Part shown: positions 1-8,181 of the stretch, in pieces | Position numbering within the stretch: position 1 is the stretch's first letter | Layout of the letters: each line of letters opens with the position of its first letter | Source: Candidatus Nomurabacteria bacterium GW2011_GWE2_34_25 | GTDB lineage: Bacteria > Patescibacteriota > Minisyncoccia > Phycocordibacterales > UBA9973 | Assembly: GCA_000990325.1 (NCBI GenBank) | Contig: LBPS01000007.1 | Coordinates: 1 to 32,360 of the forward strand | Length of the DNA: 32,360 nucleotides | Reading direction: 5' to 3' | The notes under the pieces: generated by a model | The model's database searches: none | The model's input: only the letters and a program-made list of their open reading frames with translations | Told to the model about the DNA's origin: nothing | Translations under genes and position numbers: made by a program

Positions 1-1
1 C

Positions 2-562
2 ATTTACGCAAGGCCTTTAAATGACAATGCCACATTTACAGTTTATCAACCAGGATTAATTGGTAACTATAAATCCCTCTCCGACTGGCAAACCTTCTCC
101 TCCCAAGACGCCAACTCCAAAAAGTCCCCCATTTCTATCACTTCCGAATCCGACATCTTCTTCGACTACAACGCCACCCAATCCTCCAAAACAGTCTCCC
201 TCCCTTGGCCAGTAGTAGATATGGACGGAGTCAAACATACAGGTAACATAACTATTGATCCATATCGTTCTGTCATATATCTAAAAGATCCCAACCCTAC
301 ACCCGAACCAGAAATAATTACTCCACCCATCACTCCACCAGCCACTCCATCAGGTGGCGGCGGAGGAGGCGGCGGCTCCTCATCCACCCCTTCCACTCCA
401 TCCCTAACCGAGACCCAACTAAAAGCCAAATCAAAAGACATCAAACAAGACGGACATCTAAACATCATCGACTTCAACATCATCATGACCGGAGATGGTA
501 AGATCGACATCTTTGATATCAATCAATTGATGGTTTATTGGGATGTGAAATATACTGTATAA
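2..562 (+). CDS. C-terminal fragment of a surface protein with poly-Gly linker and dockerin-like C-terminus (5' truncated by window)
   Basis: Frame is open from base 2 through the listed ORF 221..562. Thr/Pro/Ser linker, SGGGGGGGGSSS, then DIKQDGHLNIIDFNIIMTGDGKIDIFDINQLMVYW, resembling two Ca-binding dockerin-type repeats. Confidence 0.7.
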   Translation: MYARPLNDNATFTVYQPGLIGNYKSLSDWQTFSSQDANSKKSPISITSESDIFFDYNATQSSKTVSLPWPVVDMDGVKHTGNITIDPYRSVIYLKDPNPTPEPEIITPPITPPATPSGGGGGGGGSSSTPSTPSLTETQLKAKSKDIKQDGHLNIIDFNIIMTGDGKIDIFDINQLMVYWDVKYTV

Positions 563-580
563 TTTTATGGTGAAGGGCTT

Positions 581-721
581 GCCCCCACACTTAATTTGCT
601 GTAGCTTTTTTGTTCTACCGACAAAACATTTATCTATTTTTTATATTTATTACTCAAAATAAGAATATTATTATTTTTAATATTGAAAAAGCAGAATAAC
701 AGCAAATTGAGTGTAGGGGGC
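581..721. repeat. Inverted-repeat element: 22-bp arms (one wobble/mismatch, one bulge) enclosing ~95 AT-rich bp
   Basis: gcccccacacttaatttgctgt (581-602) versus acagcaaattgagtgtagggggc (699-721). Confidence 0.75.
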
Positions 722-758
722 TTGCTTTTTTAGAAACTTTATAGTAAAGTACGAGGAC

Positions 759-778
759 TAGTCGTTTCGACTATTTTT
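759..778 (+). terminator. Hairpin plus U-tract in rpsL leader (attenuator-like or upstream terminator)
   Basis: tagtcg-ttt-cgacta followed by ttttt, 30 nt upstream of the rpsL ATG. Confidence 0.5.
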
Positions 779-807
779 GTTTGAAATACATGTTCAATTA
801 GAAAATT

Positions 808-1233
808 ATGCCCACAATCAATCAATTGGTTCGAAAGAGCCGTAAAATAATAAAAAGAAAGTCAAAGGCCGTAGCTTTAGCTCGCGGTTTTAATTCGATT
901 CACAATAAGCCAGTATTCTATCCAGCTCCCTTTAAGCGTGGAGTTTGTACTAAAGTTTCAACCACTACTCCTAAGAAGCCTAACTCAGCTCTTCGTAAGA
1001 TTGCCCGTGTTAGACTTACAAATGGTATGGAAGTTACAGCATATATTCCAGGAGAAGGACACAACTTACAAGAACACTCAGTTGTCATGATTCGTGGTGG
1101 TCGTGTGAAAGACCTTATCGGAGTACGTTACCACATCGTTCGTGGACGTCTTGATACAACAGGAGTAGAGAAGCGTCGTCAGTCAAGAAGTCTCTATGGT
1201 ACAAAGACACCAAAAGCAGCAGTTAAAAAATAA
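808..1233 (+). CDS. rpsL: 30S ribosomal protein S12
   Basis: [13 protein letters not shown]... [18 protein letters not shown]... [17 protein letters not shown]; typical S12. Confidence 0.98.
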
Positions 1234-1244
1234 TTTAAAATAGT

Positions 1245-1715
1245 ATGCGAAGAAAAATAAAAAACAGAAATATAGTTGACCCAGATATAATGTATAACTC
1301 TCAGAAGTTAGGTAAGTTCATAAACAACATCATGGTTCATGGCAAGAAGGAAACAGCTCGCAAGGCCGTGTATAAAGCTTTTGAAATAATTAAAGAAAAA
1401 ACTGGTAATCCAAATCCTCTTGAAGTTTTCGACACTGCACTGAAGAATGCTGGTCCTACAGTTGAGGTTCGTTCACGTCGTATTGGTGGTGCTAACTATC
1501 AAGTTCCTCGTGAAGTTCGCCCTGAAAGACGTTTAGCCCTCGCAATGCGTTGGATTATTGGGGCAGCTCGTTCAAAGAAAGGAGCACCTATACACGAAAA
1601 GCTTGCTGAAGAATTGATACTTGCCTCTAAAAATGAAGGAATTGCAATCAAGAAAAGAGACGATACTCACAAGATGGCAGAATCAAACAAAGCCTTTGCA
1701 CACTTCGCTTGGTAG
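1245..1715 (+). CDS. rpsG: 30S ribosomal protein S7
   Basis: MRRKIKNRNIVDPD..., VEVRSRRIGGANYQVPREVRPERR, C-terminal ANKAFAHF-like tail. Confidence 0.98.
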   Translation: MRRKIKNRNIVDPDIMYNSQKLGKFINNIMVHGKKETARKAVYKAFEIIKEKTGNPNPLEVFDTALKNAGPTVEVRSRRIGGANYQVPREVRPERRLALAMRWIIGAARSKKGAPIHEKLAEELILASKNEGIAIKKRDDTHKMAESNKAFAHFAW

Positions 1716-1740
1716 CAGTTATATAAAATATTTAAACGTA

Positions 1741-1763
1741 AAACTCTCCGAAAGGGGAGTTTT
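1741..1763 (+). terminator. Intrinsic-terminator-like hairpin after rpsG
   Basis: aaactctcc-gaaa-ggggagtttt. Confidence 0.65.
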
Positions 1764-1808
1764 GATGTATAATGTAATAGAAATATAAATCTTTTAATTC
1801 TATGTGTT

Positions 1809-1994
1809 ATGTATAAAAAACTTAGCAGAAGTGAGGAAATTCTGGCAAATTTACCAGAGATTCCAGTTGACCCAGAAGAAGAACTGCAAAAGATGGAAAG
1901 AATGAATTCTTACATGAGGGAAGTGCGTAGAGACTTTATTTACAAAAGCGCCATGTCTGAAAGAAGTGCTTCTGAAGTAATTTTAAATAGTTGA
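1809..1994 (+). CDS. Small hypothetical protein (61 aa, charged, helical)
   Basis: ORF MYKKLSRSEEILANLPEIPVDPEEELQKMERM... in an otherwise non-coding interval; no family recognised. Confidence 0.45.
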   Translation: MYKKLSRSEEILANLPEIPVDPEEELQKMERMNSYMREVRRDFIYKSAMSERSASEVILNS

Positions 1995-2015
1995 TGCAAA
2001 TCAGCTATTTATTTT

Positions 2016-2052
2016 TTTACCAACCTAAACCTATGGGTTTGAGTAGGTAAAG
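2016..2052 (+). repeat. 37-bp hairpin repeat, copy A
   Basis: tttaccaacctaaacctatgggtttgagtaggtaaag; imperfect palindrome, 34/37 identical to copy B. Confidence 0.85.
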
Positions 2053-2068
2053 ATGATATAATATAATT

Positions 2069-2569
2069 ATGAGCGTAGAAAAATTGATTTTAGAATATTT
2101 AAAAGAAAATAAAAATAAGCCCGCTATTAGACATGCAGGTGTTCGGTTAGGATTTTTGGGTTTGCCTGATTTTAAGTATTATAAATATCAGACACTTGCG
2201 AATCGATGTTCGGAATTAAAAAATAGGGGATATGTAAAAGAAGTGAATGGACAATATTTTATAACTTATAAAGGGGAAGAATTTTTAAACAGAAAAGCAA
2301 GATTCAATTTTAAAACATTTGTATCAGAAAAAACAGATAAAGATCCAAAAGATTTACTTATATTATATGATATTCCTCAAAATCAAACTTCAATAAGAAA
2401 TTGGTTTAGAAGGGAGCTTCAAAATTTTCATTTTGTCATGGTACAGAGAAGTGTCTGGGTTGGTCCATTTCCATTACCTAAAGATTTTTTACAATATGTC
2501 AAAGAAATGAAAATCAGTAAAAATTTTAAAACGTTTAAATTAGAAAAAGGATTAAATATACAAAAATAA
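2069..2569 (+). CDS. PaaX-like protein: N-terminal wHTH plus C-terminal Cas2-like ferredoxin fold
   Basis: C-terminal DLLILYDIPQNQTSIRNWFRRELQNFHFVMVQRSVWVGPFPLP matches the Cas2/PaaX-C pattern (hhhhYDI...Q.SVW). N-terminus has wHTH-like YKYQTLANRCSELKNRGYVKEVNGQYFITYKGEEFL. Confidence 0.75.
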   Translation: MSVEKLILEYLKENKNKPAIRHAGVRLGFLGLPDFKYYKYQTLANRCSELKNRGYVKEVNGQYFITYKGEEFLNRKARFNFKTFVSEKTDKDPKDLLILYDIPQNQTSIRNWFRRELQNFHFVMVQRSVWVGPFPLPKDFLQYVKEMKISKNFKTFKLEKGLNIQK

Positions 2570-2572
2570 TTC

Positions 2573-2609
2573 TTTACCAAGTTAAACCTATGGGTTTGAG
2601 TTGGTAAAG
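2573..2609 (+). repeat. 37-bp hairpin repeat, copy B
   Basis: tttaccaagttaaacctatgggtttgagttggtaaag. Confidence 0.85.
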
Positions 2610-2649
2610 AGGGTTTTTGAGAAAAATTGAAAGAGGAGTGGAAATTTTC

Positions 2650-2678
2650 TTGCAAAAAAGGTGAATATATTGTATATT
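2650..2678 (+). promoter_or_regulatory. Candidate fusA promoter (TTGCAA-17-TATATT)
   Basis: TTGCAA at 2650-2655, TATATT at 2673-2678. Confidence 0.5.
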
Positions 2679-2686
2679 TGGGGGAC

Positions 2687-2710
2687 AAAAGACTGCTATG
2701 TCTTTTTTTA
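2687..2710 (+). terminator. Hairpin plus U-tract in fusA leader
   Basis: aaaagac-tgctat-gtctttttttt-like; arms 2687-2693 and 2700-2706. Confidence 0.6.
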
Positions 2711-2721
2711 TTACTAAAAAT

Positions 2722-2760
2722 ACTAGTCACTAAAACCTAGCAACTAGAAACTAATTAAAC
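2722..2760 (+). repeat. ACTAG-family repeat directly upstream of fusA
   Basis: actagtcactaaaacctagcaactagaaactaattaaac, ending at the ATG. Confidence 0.6.
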
Positions 2761-4902
2761 ATGGAAAGAGATTATCCACTAGAAAAAGTAAGAAATTTTG
2801 GTATTATTGCTCACATTGATGCGGGAAAGACTACCACAAGTGAACGTGTCCTGTTCTATACAGGAGTGTCACACAAAATAGGTGAAGTTCACGACGGGGA
2901 GACAACCACAGACTGGATGGAGCAAGAAAGAGAGAGGGGTATTACTATTACTTCTGCAGCTGTTACTTGTTTCTGGAACCCTACATACGCACCAACTGAT
3001 AAGAATAAGAAACATCGTTTCAATATTATCGATACACCTGGACACATTGACTTTACTGTTGAAGTGAAGCGTTCACTTCGTGTACTCGATGGAGCTGTCG
3101 TGGTGTTCGATGGAGTTGCTGGAGTAGAACCTCAATCAGAAACTAATTGGCGTTATGCTGACGAAGCACTCGTTCCAAGAATTTGTTTTATAAACAAGCT
3201 TGATCGTATTGGTGCATCTTTTGAGCATTCATATGCGACAATTCTAGATCGCTTAAATAAAAATGCTATTCGTATGCAGATTCCTATTGGACTTGAAGAA
3301 AAACATGAAGGAGTAGTGGATTTGCTAAAAATGAAAGCTTACTATTTTGAAGGGGAGATGGGCTCATCCGTTATTGAAAAAGATATTCCAGAAAATTTAA
3401 AAGCTGAAGCAGAAAAGTATCATGCGGAATTGATCGAGAAGATTGTTGAACAAGACGATACAATTATGACAGAATATCTAGATGGTAAAATTCCAACTCT
3501 CGATGTTTTAAAATCTTTAATGAGAAAAGCAGTTATTGCAAATAAAATTTTCCCAGTTTTTGCAGGTTCAGCTTTAAAGAATAAGGGAGTACAGCTCGTA
3601 CTTGATGCTGTCGTGGACTACCTTCCTTCACCGATCGACATTCCAGCCATAGAAGGTATTAATCCTGACAATGACGAAAAGGATGTACGTCACGCTTCTG
3701 ACGCTGAGCCATTTTCAGCTCTTGCTTTCAAGGTTGCTACAGATCCATTTGTCGGACAGATTATATTCTTCCGTGTTTATTCAGGAACACTAGCTGCTGG
3801 AAGTTATGTATATAATCCTCGCACTCGTAACAAAGAACGTATTGGACGAATCCTTCGTATGCATGCCAATGATCGTGAAGAAGTGAAGAAAGTTTATGCA
3901 GGAGAGATAGCAGCAGCAGTAGGATTGAAAGATACTATCACTTCAGATACTTTGTGTGATGAAGAACACCCAATTGAACTTTACCGTATTGTTTTCCCTG
4001 AGCCAGTTATTCAGCTACGTGTTGAACCAAAGACTAAAGCTGACCAAGAGAAAATGGGTATGGCCCTTTCACGTCTTGCACAAGAAGATCCAACTTTCCG
4101 GGTTACGACAGATGCAGAAACTAACGAAACAATTATCGCAGGAATGGGAGAACTTCATCTTGAAATTATCGTTGATCGTATGAAGCGTGAATTCTCAGTT
4201 GAGACAAATGTAGGTAAGCCTCAGGTTGCGTACCGTGAGACTATCACAGGTGAAGCCCAAGTAGAAGGTAAATATATTAAGCAGTCAGGAGGCCGTGGTA
4301 ACTATGGTCACGTGAAGATTAAGATCAAGCCTATGGATCAAAGTATTAAAGCCGAAGATCTTCCAAAGAATGTAAAAAGAGAAAAAGGATTTGAATTCAT
4401 AAATACAATCAAAGGAGGAGCTATTCCACAAGAATATATTCCTGCTTGTGAAAAAGGATTCAAAGAAGGACTCGACAGGGGAGTACTTGCAGGATTCAAA
4501 CTTGAAAATGTTTCTGTAGAGCTTTACGATGGATCATTCCATGATGTTGACTCCAACGAAATGGCCTTCAAGATTGCAGCTTCAATGGCAGTACAAGATG
4601 CATGTAAAATTGCTCGCCCAGTAATACTAGAACCAATGATGCAAGTAGAAGTTGTGACGCCAGATAAATTCATGGGAGATGTAACAGGATCACTTTCTTC
4701 AAAGCGTGGACTTATAGAAGGAATGGAAGCGAGAGGTATGAATCAAGCAGTCAAGGCTGTTGTGCCTCTATCTGAAATGTTTGGATATATGACAACTCTT
4801 CGCTCTATGACAGAAGGAAGAGCAGGGTTTACAATGGAATTCTTACGTTATGATATAGTGCCACAAAGTGTTGCTACTTCTATAATAGAGGCAAGAAAAT
4901 AA
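2761..4902 (+). CDS. fusA: Elongation factor G
   Basis: [57 protein letters not shown]. Confidence 0.99.
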
Positions 4903-4919
4903 GTAAGTATTATTTGTAA

Positions 4920-4957
4920 ATAAAATACCTTATTATTTTAATAATAAGGTATTTTAT
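4920..4957. terminator. Perfect ~18-bp AT-rich hairpin after fusA
   Basis: aaaataccttattatt (4922-4937) pairs with aataataaggtatttt (4940-4955), plus two more outer pairs. Confidence 0.75.
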
Positions 4958-5048
4958 AGTTATGCACATGTATATTAATAATTTATTACCAGAATATTTT
5001 AATTTATGTTATTATATTTAAATAGTATTATAAATTTAATATTTCTCT

Positions 5049-5696
5049 ATGAAAAAAATCATGTTCAAAAGGGTTCTAGTTGCTTCGATTATTTCGTTGT
5101 TCTTTGTGCAGTCACTTTATTTGACGCTTGAGCCAACTTATGTAATTGCGGCTTCTGTAAATGATTCAGTAGTGGTTACTCTCACTGTTGATGCAGGAAT
5201 TACTATTACTTCTCCTACGGATGTAACAATGTCTCCTAATATGGGCATCACCGCCAATGGATCTATCGGTAGTTCAGCTTGGACAGTAAAAACAAATAAT
5301 ACAACAGGTTACAGTCTAGCGGTCAAAGCCTCAGCAGCTCCAGCTCTTGTTAGTGGGGCAAATTCTTTTGCTGATTATACAGAGGCTGTTAATGGAACAC
5401 CTGAAGTTTGGTCTGTCCCAGCTTCTAGTAAAGAATTTGGTTATTCTGCTTATGGAACAGATGTTGCAACTGCTACTTGGGGGACTGGGGCTGGTTGTGG
5501 TTCAGCTGGGGCTCCATTGGGCACAATGAAATATGTTGGTTTTGAAATAACGGACAAAACTGTTGCTACTGCATCTACCGTCACACCTTTTGCTGGTACC
5601 GCCACAACAGTTTGTTATGCTGTTGAACAGGATACAGTCTATGCCGCTTCAGGAGTCTACACTGCCACTATTACTGCGACAGCGACAACCTTATAG
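5049..5696 (+). CDS. Secreted WxL-like beta-sandwich protein, paralog 1
   Basis: Signal peptide; SVVVTLTVDAGITITSPTDV..., SSAWTVKTNNTTGYSLAVKAS, C-terminal GVYTATITATATTL. Confidence 0.7.
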   Translation: MKKIMFKRVLVASIISLFFVQSLYLTLEPTYVIAASVNDSVVVTLTVDAGITITSPTDVTMSPNMGITANGSIGSSAWTVKTNNTTGYSLAVKASAAPALVSGANSFADYTEAVNGTPEVWSVPASSKEFGYSAYGTDVATATWGTGAGCGSAGAPLGTMKYVGFEITDKTVATASTVTPFAGTATTVCYAVEQDTVYAASGVYTATITATATTL

Positions 5697-5765
5697 TTGT
5701 TTATTTATTTAAGTTTAGTATAATTGAAATATATAGGTTATTTTATTAAAAAATTATTATTTTAT

Positions 5766-6413
5766 ATGAAAAAAGACATTATAAAGAAAGTTATTACAAT
5801 TTCGACCATTTCTTTGTTCTTTGTGCAGTCACTTTATTTGATACTTGAACCAACTTATGTGATTGCGGCTTCTGTAAATGATTCAGTAGTGGTTACTCTA
5901 ACTGTTGACTCTGGTATCACAATTACCACTCCATCTGATGTCACTATGGCTCCTAGTTTTGGCGTTGCTGCTGATAGTTCTATAGGATCTGCTACTTGGA
6001 ATGTAAAAACAAACCACGCTACAGGTTACAGTCTAGCAGTCAAGGCTTCAGCTTCTCCAGCTCTTGTCAGTGGGGCAAATAATTTTGCTGATTATACAGA
6101 AGGTACACCAACAGTACCAGAGCTTTGGTCCGTTGCATCTGGAGCAAAAGAATTTGGTTACTCTGCCTATGGGACTGATACTTCAACTGCAACCTGGGGA
6201 ACATCTGCTTCTTGTGGTTCTGCCGGAGTACCTGCTGCTGCACAGAAATATTTAGGTTTCGAGACAACTGATTTTACTGTAGCTACAAGAGCTGTTGTAA
6301 CAGCAACAACAGGAGTTGATACCACAGTTTGTTTTGCTGCACAGCAAAATGCTGTCTATGCCGCCTCAGGAGTCTACACTGCCACTATTACTGCGACAGC
6401 GACTGAGATTTAA
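5766..6413 (+). CDS. Secreted WxL-like beta-sandwich protein, paralog 2 (listed ORF begins 5724; start at 5766 aligns with paralog 1)
   Basis: MKKDIIKKVITISTISLFFVQSLYLILEPTYVIAASVNDSVVVTLTVDSG; close paralog of 5049..5696 in protein and DNA. Confidence 0.7.
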   Translation: MKKDIIKKVITISTISLFFVQSLYLILEPTYVIAASVNDSVVVTLTVDSGITITTPSDVTMAPSFGVAADSSIGSATWNVKTNHATGYSLAVKASASPALVSGANNFADYTEGTPTVPELWSVASGAKEFGYSAYGTDTSTATWGTSASCGSAGVPAAAQKYLGFETTDFTVATRAVVTATTGVDTTVCFAAQQNAVYAASGVYTATITATATEI

Positions 6414-6425
6414 TACTTCAAATAT

Positions 6426-7394
6426 ATGAAAATTAATTATAAGAAAAAAATAGCAGTAGGGGTCGCTTTTTTAACGGCCTTTTCTTTTATTGGTGTTGCT
6501 TTGGCGTACGAGAAAACAAAAATTGATTTACCTGCTCAAAATGACTTTGTCGTTGAACCAGGTAAAACTGAAATATTTGTAAACCCAGGAGAAAATATAA
6601 CGAAAAGTATTACCATTACTAATCGTATTGGAAAAAATATTAAGTTTAAATTAACAACGGAAGACATGATTGGAACGAATGATTCGTTGTCACCTATTAA
6701 ACTATTAGGGGATGAAAAAGGTCCATATTCTGTCAAAAACTTTATTGAACCAGAAATTAGTGAATTTTCCCTAGAATTAGGAGAAAGAATTGTTATTCCT
6801 GTTAAAGTCTCTGTTCCTTTAGACGCCGAACCGCGTGGTTATTACGGGGCTCTTATTGTTTCAAACGAACCTGAAGTTATTGGTGACACCTCTTCTAAAG
6901 AAACAGAAGGTAAGGCTCGCCTTGTTTCTCGAATTGGGTCACTCTTTTTCTTAAGAATTAATGGGGAAGGTAAAGAATCTGGAGATCTAGAAGATTTTAA
7001 AATAATTGGACCAAATAAAACTTTCTACGAAAACAGGCCAAAGGGGTTTGAAATAGCTTTCAAAAATACAGGGAATGTGCACTTGGTGCCTCATGGCAGG
7101 ATAACCATTAGAAATATTTTAGGTCGGGATGTCGGGTCAATTCCTGTGGATGCATATTTTTCTCTTCCAGATTCTATTCGTTATCGTGAAGTTTTATGGG
7201 AAGAAGGTAGTGGTCTTGGTCGCTATACAGCCAATTTATCTTTATTCCCTGGCTTTGGAAATGAAAATCAAGAATCTTCTGTTGCTTTTTGGATTATCCC
7301 ATGGAAAATACTCTTAGCTACTTTTGTTGGGCTTATTGTTCTTATTTCTTTCATCTACTATATTCTCACTCGTTTCGAACTTAGGAAAAAATAA
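6426..7394 (+). CDS. DUF916-like (WxL-interacting-protein-like) surface protein with C-terminal TM helix
   Basis: Signal peptide; VNPGENITKSITITNRIGKNIKFKL, EPRGYYGALIVSNEP, ENRPKGFEIAFKNTGNVHLVPHGRITIRNILGRDV; C-terminal IPWKILLATFVGLIVLISFIYYIL plus basic tail. Confidence 0.65.
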   Translation: MKINYKKKIAVGVAFLTAFSFIGVALAYEKTKIDLPAQNDFVVEPGKTEIFVNPGENITKSITITNRIGKNIKFKLTTEDMIGTNDSLSPIKLLGDEKGPYSVKNFIEPEISEFSLELGERIVIPVKVSVPLDAEPRGYYGALIVSNEPEVIGDTSSKETEGKARLVSRIGSLFFLRINGEGKESGDLEDFKIIGPNKTFYENRPKGFEIAFKNTGNVHLVPHGRITIRNILGRDVGSIPVDAYFSLPDSIRYREVLWEEGSGLGRYTANLSLFPGFGNENQESSVAFWIIPWKILLATFVGLIVLISFIYYILTRFELRKK

Positions 7395-7407
7395 TATTTA
7401 ATTTAGC

Positions 7408-8181
7408 ATGAATTTCTATCGCTTTTTTTCAAAAAGTAAATACATCGTTATTTTGATGTGGATTGTTATTTCTTCATTTGTTCTCTCTCAGGATAGTTTG
7501 GCTGATTATATGCAAAGCGGAACTTATCGGATTCAATCTGACAGTTTGAATTTTGGTGGAGCTGATAGTTCTAGCTCTAACTATAAAGTTAATGATACTC
7601 TTGGTGAGATAGGAACAGGGGATTCAAATAGTGGAAACTACTATATGCATGCTGGGTATTGGCAAATGCAGGAAAGTTATATTGCCATATCTAGTCCCTC
7701 TGATCTGGCTATGACTTCTATGGGAGGACTCTCAGGAGGCTCTAGTGAAGGTACTATGTCTTGGGTTGTAACAACCGACAACACAGCTGGATATACAATG
7801 TCAATTGCATCCACAACAACTCCAGCACTTAAGTCTGCAGTAGATTCTCTAGATGACTATACTCCGGCAGGAGCTGATCCTGATTATAATTTTACAAACT
7901 TAGCTACCAATTCTTCTTTTGGTTTTTCTCCAGAAGGGACGGAAACCACTTCTCGTTTTAAAGACAATGGAGTAGCTTGTAATATTGGATCTTCGGAAAC
8001 AACTAGCAAATGTTGGGATGGACTTTCTACGACACCGAAGGTTATCGCCGGTAGCACAACTTCTAATCAACCTTCGGGGAGTACGGTGACGACTCGCTTT
8101 AGGGCCGAATCTGGAGCTGATCATATTCAAACATCTGGAGCGTACAATGTGACTATTGTGGTAACAGCTACTACACTATAA
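7408..8181 (+). CDS. Secreted protein with C-terminal domain related to the two WxL-like paralogs
   Basis: Signal peptide; YRIQSDSLNFGGADSSSSNYKVNDTLGEIGTGDSNSGNYYMHAGYW; C-terminal MSWVVTTDNTAGYTMSIAS ... GAYNVTIVVTATTL. Confidence 0.65.
   Translation: MNFYRFFSKSKYIVILMWIVISSFVLSQDSLADYMQSGTYRIQSDSLNFGGADSSSSNYKVNDTLGEIGTGDSNSGNYYMHAGYWQMQESYIAISSPSDLAMTSMGGLSGGSSEGTMSWVVTTDNTAGYTMSIASTTTPALKSAVDSLDDYTPAGADPDYNFTNLATNSSFGFSPEGTETTSRFKDNGVACNIGSSETTSKCWDGLSTTPKVIAGSTTSNQPSGSTVTTRFRAESGADHIQTSGAYNVTIVVTATTL

Follow-up and report, generated by a model that had tools for sequence, protein, structure and literature searches.

Matching palindromes bracket a PaaX- and Cas2-like gene family in Patescibacteria: a candidate REPtron-like element

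Introduction

Between rpsG and fusA, in the 767-kb genome of a bacterium related to Candidatus Nomurabacteria, a small gene encoding a winged helix (wHTH) and a Cas2-like domain stands between two nearly identical hairpins. Why should such a gene carry the same hairpin on both sides? A preliminary description proposed a self-flanked cassette and left two readings side by side: a regulator with hairpin operators, or a small mobile unit resembling a REPtron. We compared the locus with related loci, genomes and proteins. The window, meaning the whole stretch of 32,360 nucleotides that was analysed, is contig C7 of its source genome, labelled G000 below; contig C5 of that genome holds locus L007. 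Most of the genomes compared are fragmented metagenome-assembled genomes (MAGs).

Results

The window locus

The cassette gene has rpsL, rpsG and fusA as neighbours, in the positions first given for them. The features of the locus are:

1245-1715, rpsG, 5' neighbour of the cassette gene
1792-2650, DNA missing from the rpsG-fusA gap of relatives, e.g. G017, G009 and G008 (edges approximate)
1809-1994, + strand, 61-aa ORF, probable cargo remnant (likeness judged by eye)
2016-2051, no strand, upstream palindrome (copy A), TTTACC-N24-GGTAAA, covering the promoter's -35 region
2057-2062, + strand, -10 box TATAAT, 6 bp before the ATG, a leaderless geometry common to the family
2069-2569, + strand, gene for a wHTH plus Cas2-like (PaaX_M) protein of 166 aa, with D101, R110, R114, Q126 and S128 conserved
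2573-2608, no strand, downstream palindrome (copy B), TTTACC-N24-GGTAAA
2761-4902, fusA, 3' neighbour of the cassette gene

Both palindromes lie within a 44-nt direct repeat (2010-2053 and 2567-2610, 89% identical). Between copy A and the ATG at 2069 there are 17 bp, and copy B starts 3 bp past the stop at 2569. Their folding energies, -14.3 and -22.5 kcal/mol respectively, are lower than those of shuffled sequences (z = -3.1 and -7.5). The pair of hairpins seen initially is thus real, with a palindrome length of 36 bp in place of the 37 bp reported, and the TATAAT was correctly placed. Within this genome, TAAACCTATGGGTTTGAG occurs without mismatch only in the two cassette hairpins; a search allowing three mismatches yielded one extra site in the same genome, which equals the control rate. 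An Rfam scan of window positions 1-8000 gave no match.

By eye, the ORF at 1809-1994 resembles the tail of a 169-aa ORF in G019 (L008), where that longer ORF precedes a palindrome and a gene of the window's type; it is probably the remnant of a cargo gene. Farther upstream, at 581-721, lies a MITE-like inverted-repeat element of about 140 bp (GCCCCCACACTTAATTTGCTGT...ACAGCAAATTGAGTGTAGGGGGC). Repeats of this type also occur in the rpsG-fusA gap of G004, G016, G002 and G009, and in three of those four gaps the repeat adjoins an apparent GIY-YIG nuclease gene.

The protein

A Pfam scan of the window protein returned PaaX_M (PF20803, 6e-12, 45.9 bits against a cut-off of 24), CRISPR_Cas2 (PF09827, 4e-6) and a wHTH, in agreement with the domains proposed at the outset. 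The Cas2 profile TIGR01573 was just reached (24.6 bits, cut-off 24.5), and the full-length PaaX equivalog TIGR02277 was not (15.2 bits, cut-off 264.55). The predicted structure, a model of only moderate confidence (pTM 0.49), combines a wHTH with a ferredoxin-like fold; its top PDB match was E. coli PaaX (8a39), with Cas2 (3exc) among the next ones. The wHTH also bears a weak similarity to the chromatin protein Sso10a. Signature residues of Cas2 were nearly invariant among the bracketed proteins of the family (D in 70/70, R in 70/70, Q in 69/70, S in 70/70), while the positions of D101, R110, R114, Q126 and S128 are taken by E, L, K, A and S in E. coli PaaX. The window protein thus retains the Cas2 signature, of which little is left in E. 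coli PaaX. The Cas2 fold is able to cut DNA, since BPSL1038, a protein of this fold outside CRISPR, is a dsDNA nuclease (PMC10491678).

Two familiar assignments were set aside. Cas1 (PF01867) was absent from the window's genome and from 59 of its 60 relatives, leaving one positive among the 61 genomes searched, and a role in CRISPR adaptation was rejected on that ground. Pfam found only PaaX_M, Cas2 and HTH-type domains in the bracketed gene, with no Y1_Tnp (PF01797), HUH/Y1 or other recombinase domain; lacking a Y1 transposase domain, the gene was not counted as a RAYT. A Y1_Tnp gene resembling REP-associated transposases does occur elsewhere in the window's genome (L007:65-715, G000:C5); with its palindromic flanks, it is a candidate for a genuine REPtron.

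Protein architecture varies within the family. Some short members, about 125 aa long, keep the palindromic bracket although most of the winged helix is missing (L276, L279, L081-L084, L260, L275). Many distant members (L031, L103, L215, L232 and similar ones) have a hydrophobic N-terminal stretch that could span a membrane. Two members on one contig, L268 and L273 (JAPLXO010000005), share Cas2-domain DNA that is 96.6% identical and differ in their winged-helix parts, a pattern of either domain swapping or gene conversion.

Bracketing by private palindromes

The PaaX_M family was found in 122 of 380 sampled Patescibacteria genomes, about a third, with a patchy distribution and up to 11 copies per genome. 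Under one fixed scoring rule, a matched palindrome bracket was present at 47 of 98 family genes as compared to 10 of 433 control genes (Fisher p 6e-30), and at 70 of 165 family genes in an enlarged set; clear cases in G003, G013 and G019 score below the cut of this rule. Among relatives, members of the short clades are mostly bracketed, and bracketing extends to genomes of other orders and classes of the phylum. The palindromes are thus linked to family genes and are not simply abundant hairpins with no tie to them. Where brackets could be oriented, 18 were direct and 12 inverted; the other 40 of the 70 were undecidable.

Each pair of palindromes is private to its cassette. Outer arms agreed at 13.1 of 16 positions within a cassette and at 7.1 of 16 between cassettes, in pairs picked by core similarity, with the arms not part of the selection. 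Arms vary from locus to locus and keep their palindromicity through compensatory change. Within the window's genome there are three paralogues of the cassette gene, two of them bracketed by different, internally matching palindromes, with cores GCCATGGC at L005 and ACGGCCGT at L006. The third (L007:1429-1950, G000:C5) sits between grpE and dnaK, with a lone palindrome at 1979-2026 in the divergent promoter. This paralogue and its single promoter palindrome are kept in many relatives, the downstream palindrome is lacking, and Q126 is replaced by K in 11/11 members of the grpE-linked clade. It is a candidate heat-shock repressor with an HrcA-like role.

G023 carries two different rpsL-rpsG contigs (C22, C27), probably from mixed strains, and its count of 12 members may be inflated. 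Very long palindromes at contig ends (120 bp in L075, 60 bp in L069) were suspected to be assembly fold-backs and given no weight. The patterns used found no relatives of the family in viral contigs.

Promoter geometry

The spacing of palindrome and gene recurs across the family, with a median of 19 bp from the end of the upstream palindrome to the ATG and 12.5 bp from the stop to the downstream palindrome. A TATAAT-like box (at least 5/6) was present in 45 of 62 cases, where shuffles predict 34, and in 28 of those 45, a pattern that includes the window, the box ended 6 or 7 bp before the ATG. The family promoter is leaderless, and its -35 region lies within the palindrome. The upstream hairpin precedes the -10 box of this leaderless promoter, and a classical terminator was rejected as the main role of the hairpins for that reason. 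Given the private palindrome pairs, the promoter geometry and the relation to PaaX, self-binding and autorepression are likely. The suggestion that copy A is an operator agrees with this geometry; repression itself would follow from binding there.

The cassette as a probable moving unit

Cassettes of the window's type (67-70% protein identity) occupy the rpsG-fusA interval in G012, G003, G013, G019 and G023, and other subtypes occur at the same site beside rpsG (G023:C22, G032, G010). The interval has no cassette in at least nine genomes of the same genus, for example G001, with a gap of 16 bp, and G017; many str operons are without it. The gap is also a general hotspot for accessory DNA. At tmk, a NUDIX gene overlaps tmk in G001, G012, G009 and G003, and a cassette splits the two in G004. 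Because the gyrB-thrS, tmk and rpsG sites are each common to several species, cassettes are often inherited vertically.

Homology between cassettes at different loci can end at the palindromes. The window cassette and one beside murG (G013:C66) share 607 bp of homology, which starts 0 bp and stops 0-2 bp from the outer palindrome edges. Of all 101 cassette comparisons, 45 had the left homology edge within 12 bp and 31 the right edge. Palindromes mark the boundaries of the unit, sharply in the best pairs and more loosely overall. In MFWB01, two cassettes, one of them at rpsG-fusA, share 91% identity across 479 bp and have unrelated flanks; they are the only near-identical whole-cassette pair seen within one genome.

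Other small genes are bounded by hairpins as well, in strings of hairpin, gene, hairpin and cargo in G003, G013 and G019. A 23-codon copy of the end of rpsG follows the third hairpin in G013 (L065:1510-1569 = G013:C19:3768-3836), which looks as if an element had entered rpsG and restored its end. By eye, no target-site duplication was recognised at tmk, rpsG, murB or miaA, where flanks are much diverged, and no strand-transfer motif was recognised. Judged from sequence comparison, the cassette acts like a moving unit: the same unit lies at different loci, its ends are sharp in the best pairs, and empty sites exist. Together with the family-wide bracketing, this strongly supports the self-flanked cassette of the preliminary description.

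Solo palindromes in and between genes

Away from family genes, solo cores of a given type exceeded reversed-pattern controls in genomes with the matching type. They are few, about 1-8 per genome per type, and lie both between and inside genes; none of the window's own type was recognised in the window's genome. Some have no matching gene that we found in the genome (G004, G007). At the map locus, a palindrome nearly identical to the window's is present in G004 and missing from G000, and the neighbouring gene differs as well.

Two housekeeping genes carry palindromes in frame. In miaA of G012, G019 and G004, a palindrome replaces 11 ordinary codons with the length unchanged. In murB of nine genomes, a palindrome stands where other species are 12 nt shorter. 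Its two arms compensate each other in 12 of 19 pairs, a result matched by 0 of 500 shuffles for most measures; the nine sequences are related, so that shuffles are not independent. In G005 and G009, the murB arms resemble, by eye, the arms around cassettes of that genome. Matches to ACGCTATMGCG inside coding genes were discounted as chance when palindromic arms were lacking; murB and miaA were retained for theirs. Two reverse-transcriptase-like ORFs (L145:1761-2837 in G014, L155:1707-2714 in G019) also contain family palindromes, in frame and at the same position.

Discussion

We favour, at a probability of about 0.5, a small selfish element resembling a REPtron, whose Cas2-like protein would bind and act on its own palindromes. 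This reading is preferred because a regulator alone would not account for the palindrome after the gene, the edges of the unit, the sites found empty, the solo copies or the palindromes within coding genes. The comparison of sequences shows the specific pairing of palindrome and gene, the unit edges in the best pairs, the empty and filled sites, the solo copies and the compensatory arms. Several points weigh against it: no target-site duplication, strand-transfer motif or recombinase domain was recognised, several sites are common to different species, a single near-identical pair was seen within one genome, homology edges are looser over all comparisons, solo copies are few and some occur where we found no matching gene, the characterised relatives are ordinary repressors, and most genomes are fragmented. 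Solo and intragenic palindromes and compensatory evolution also favour the REPtron-like alternative named earlier, in which catalysis by the protein is presumed.

The most serious competitor, rather unlikely in our judgement, is a set of autoregulated PaaX-type transcription factors with an upstream operator and a second downstream site for looping or insulation. Solo palindromes would be regulons, and the genes would spread by horizontal transfer and homologous recombination, not by chemistry of their own. Family relation to PaaX and palindrome-promoter geometry speak for it, as does the fact that the characterised relatives, E. coli PaaX and TTHA0973, are ordinary repressors, the latter binding a palindrome (PMC6651687). 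The grpE-dnaK clade, with one palindrome in a divergent promoter, looks classical in this respect; however, this regulator-like clade is set apart from the cassettes by its Q126K change and the missing downstream palindrome. Autoregulation does not account for a palindrome right after the stop, the sites inside murB, miaA and a reverse-transcriptase gene would serve a regulon poorly, and the long, variable arms exceed what a fixed dimer site needs. If this reading is right, the novelty shrinks to a variation on PaaX regulators.

Sites that lie between and within genes and have long been kept in place, as in murB of nine genomes, would also suit dispersed chromosomal sites of the parS, matS or uptake-signal kind, through which the protein organises or marks the chromosome, its own gene bearing two of them. 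The Sso10a likeness of the wHTH fits as well, but this is made improbable by the coexistence in one genome of several cassettes whose palindromes are private, by the low number of sites per genome and by the patchy distribution in the phylum. Least probable of all, in our view, are passive palindromes that arise or are perfected by template-switch (quasipalindrome) correction and are dispersed through short-patch illegitimate recombination, with a gene that hitch-hikes in hypervariable gaps. Arms perfected by compensatory change, the constant-length patch in miaA and the general rpsG-fusA hotspot are as expected under such a process, which leaves unexplained both the pairing around one protein family, with few control genes affected, and the recurrent promoter spacing.

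For the selfish REPtron-like element, we envisage the following. The element would consist of palindrome, wHTH/Cas2-like gene and palindrome, a REPtron architecture with an unrelated protein. A protein dimer would bind its own palindrome; its wHTHs would probably recognise the cassette-specific arms, with the Cas2-like core placed at the centre. Occupation of the upstream palindrome, over the -35 region, would repress the gene. Palindromes might be met as cruciforms or as single-stranded hairpins at replication forks, where the protein would nick or hold them, so that a single palindrome, a cargo gene bounded by palindromes or the cassette as a whole would be copied or patched into a new site. 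Template-switch correction may contribute to the perfection of the arms. A more tentative proposal is that catalysis lies with the Cas2-like protein, which as a nicking dimer would process its own palindromes and cause DNA bounded by them to be copied or patched into new places.

Were the protein the catalyst, DNA would be moved by a Cas2 fold alone, without Cas1 or HUH, DDE, tyrosine or serine recombinases, and many mutually private systems would coexist in Patescibacteria genomes, which are tiny and in which few mobile elements have been described so far. A family whose bracketed members act like palindrome-bounded elements and alter short segments of housekeeping genes would offer these genomes a new way to change. 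It would also connect DNA mobility outside CRISPR with the Cas2 fold and bear on the origin of the Cas2-Cas1 partnership. The many natural protein-palindrome pairs are ready material for recognition tests. We found no account of such palindrome-bracketed Cas2-like cassettes in the open literature, the coverage of which mostly excluded subscription papers and preprints.

Comparison with known systems

Several known systems share part of this arrangement. In integrons, imperfect attC hairpins separate genes, as hairpins do in G003, G013 and G019; here the strings are short, the palindromes are not of the attC type, and no integron integrase was noticed at the loci. Rickettsia palindromic elements and MITEs are short palindromes inserted in frame within protein-coding genes, a likeness to murB and miaA; here, in contrast, the palindromes are shared with a linked protein family, and the miaA palindrome replaced an equal length of sequence.

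By protein, the closest relatives are the PaaX repressors (E. coli PaaX, Thermus TTHA0973), which share the wHTH and PaaX_M, the palindromic operators and the fold (8a39). Cassette proteins are about half their size (125-200 aa), keep the Cas2 signature, are bracketed by palindromes and go with no catabolic operon. At the E. coli locus, paaX leads into paaY and no palindrome follows it. CRISPR Cas2 and stand-alone Cas2/VapD-type nucleases (BPSL1038, PMC10491678) have in common with the cassette protein the ferredoxin-like fold and the YD...R...L...Q.SV signature, but the cassette protein is fused to a wHTH, and Cas1 is confined to one of the 61 searched genomes, not the window's own.

By architecture, the closest system is that of the REP-associated tyrosine transposases (RAYT/REP, or REPtron; PMC2817692). 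There, too, one gene stands between two palindromes with further palindromes scattered in the genome, orthologous flanking palindromes change in sequence and stay palindromic, and several gene-palindrome types occur per genome. The cassette protein differs in being a wHTH plus Cas2-like protein without a Y1_Tnp domain or HUH/Tyr motif, and the cassette palindromes are low in copy number, direct as well as inverted where their orientation could be read, and also found inside coding genes. Because the cassettes correspond in full neither to RAYT/REP elements nor to PaaX regulators, they appear to be of an undescribed kind.
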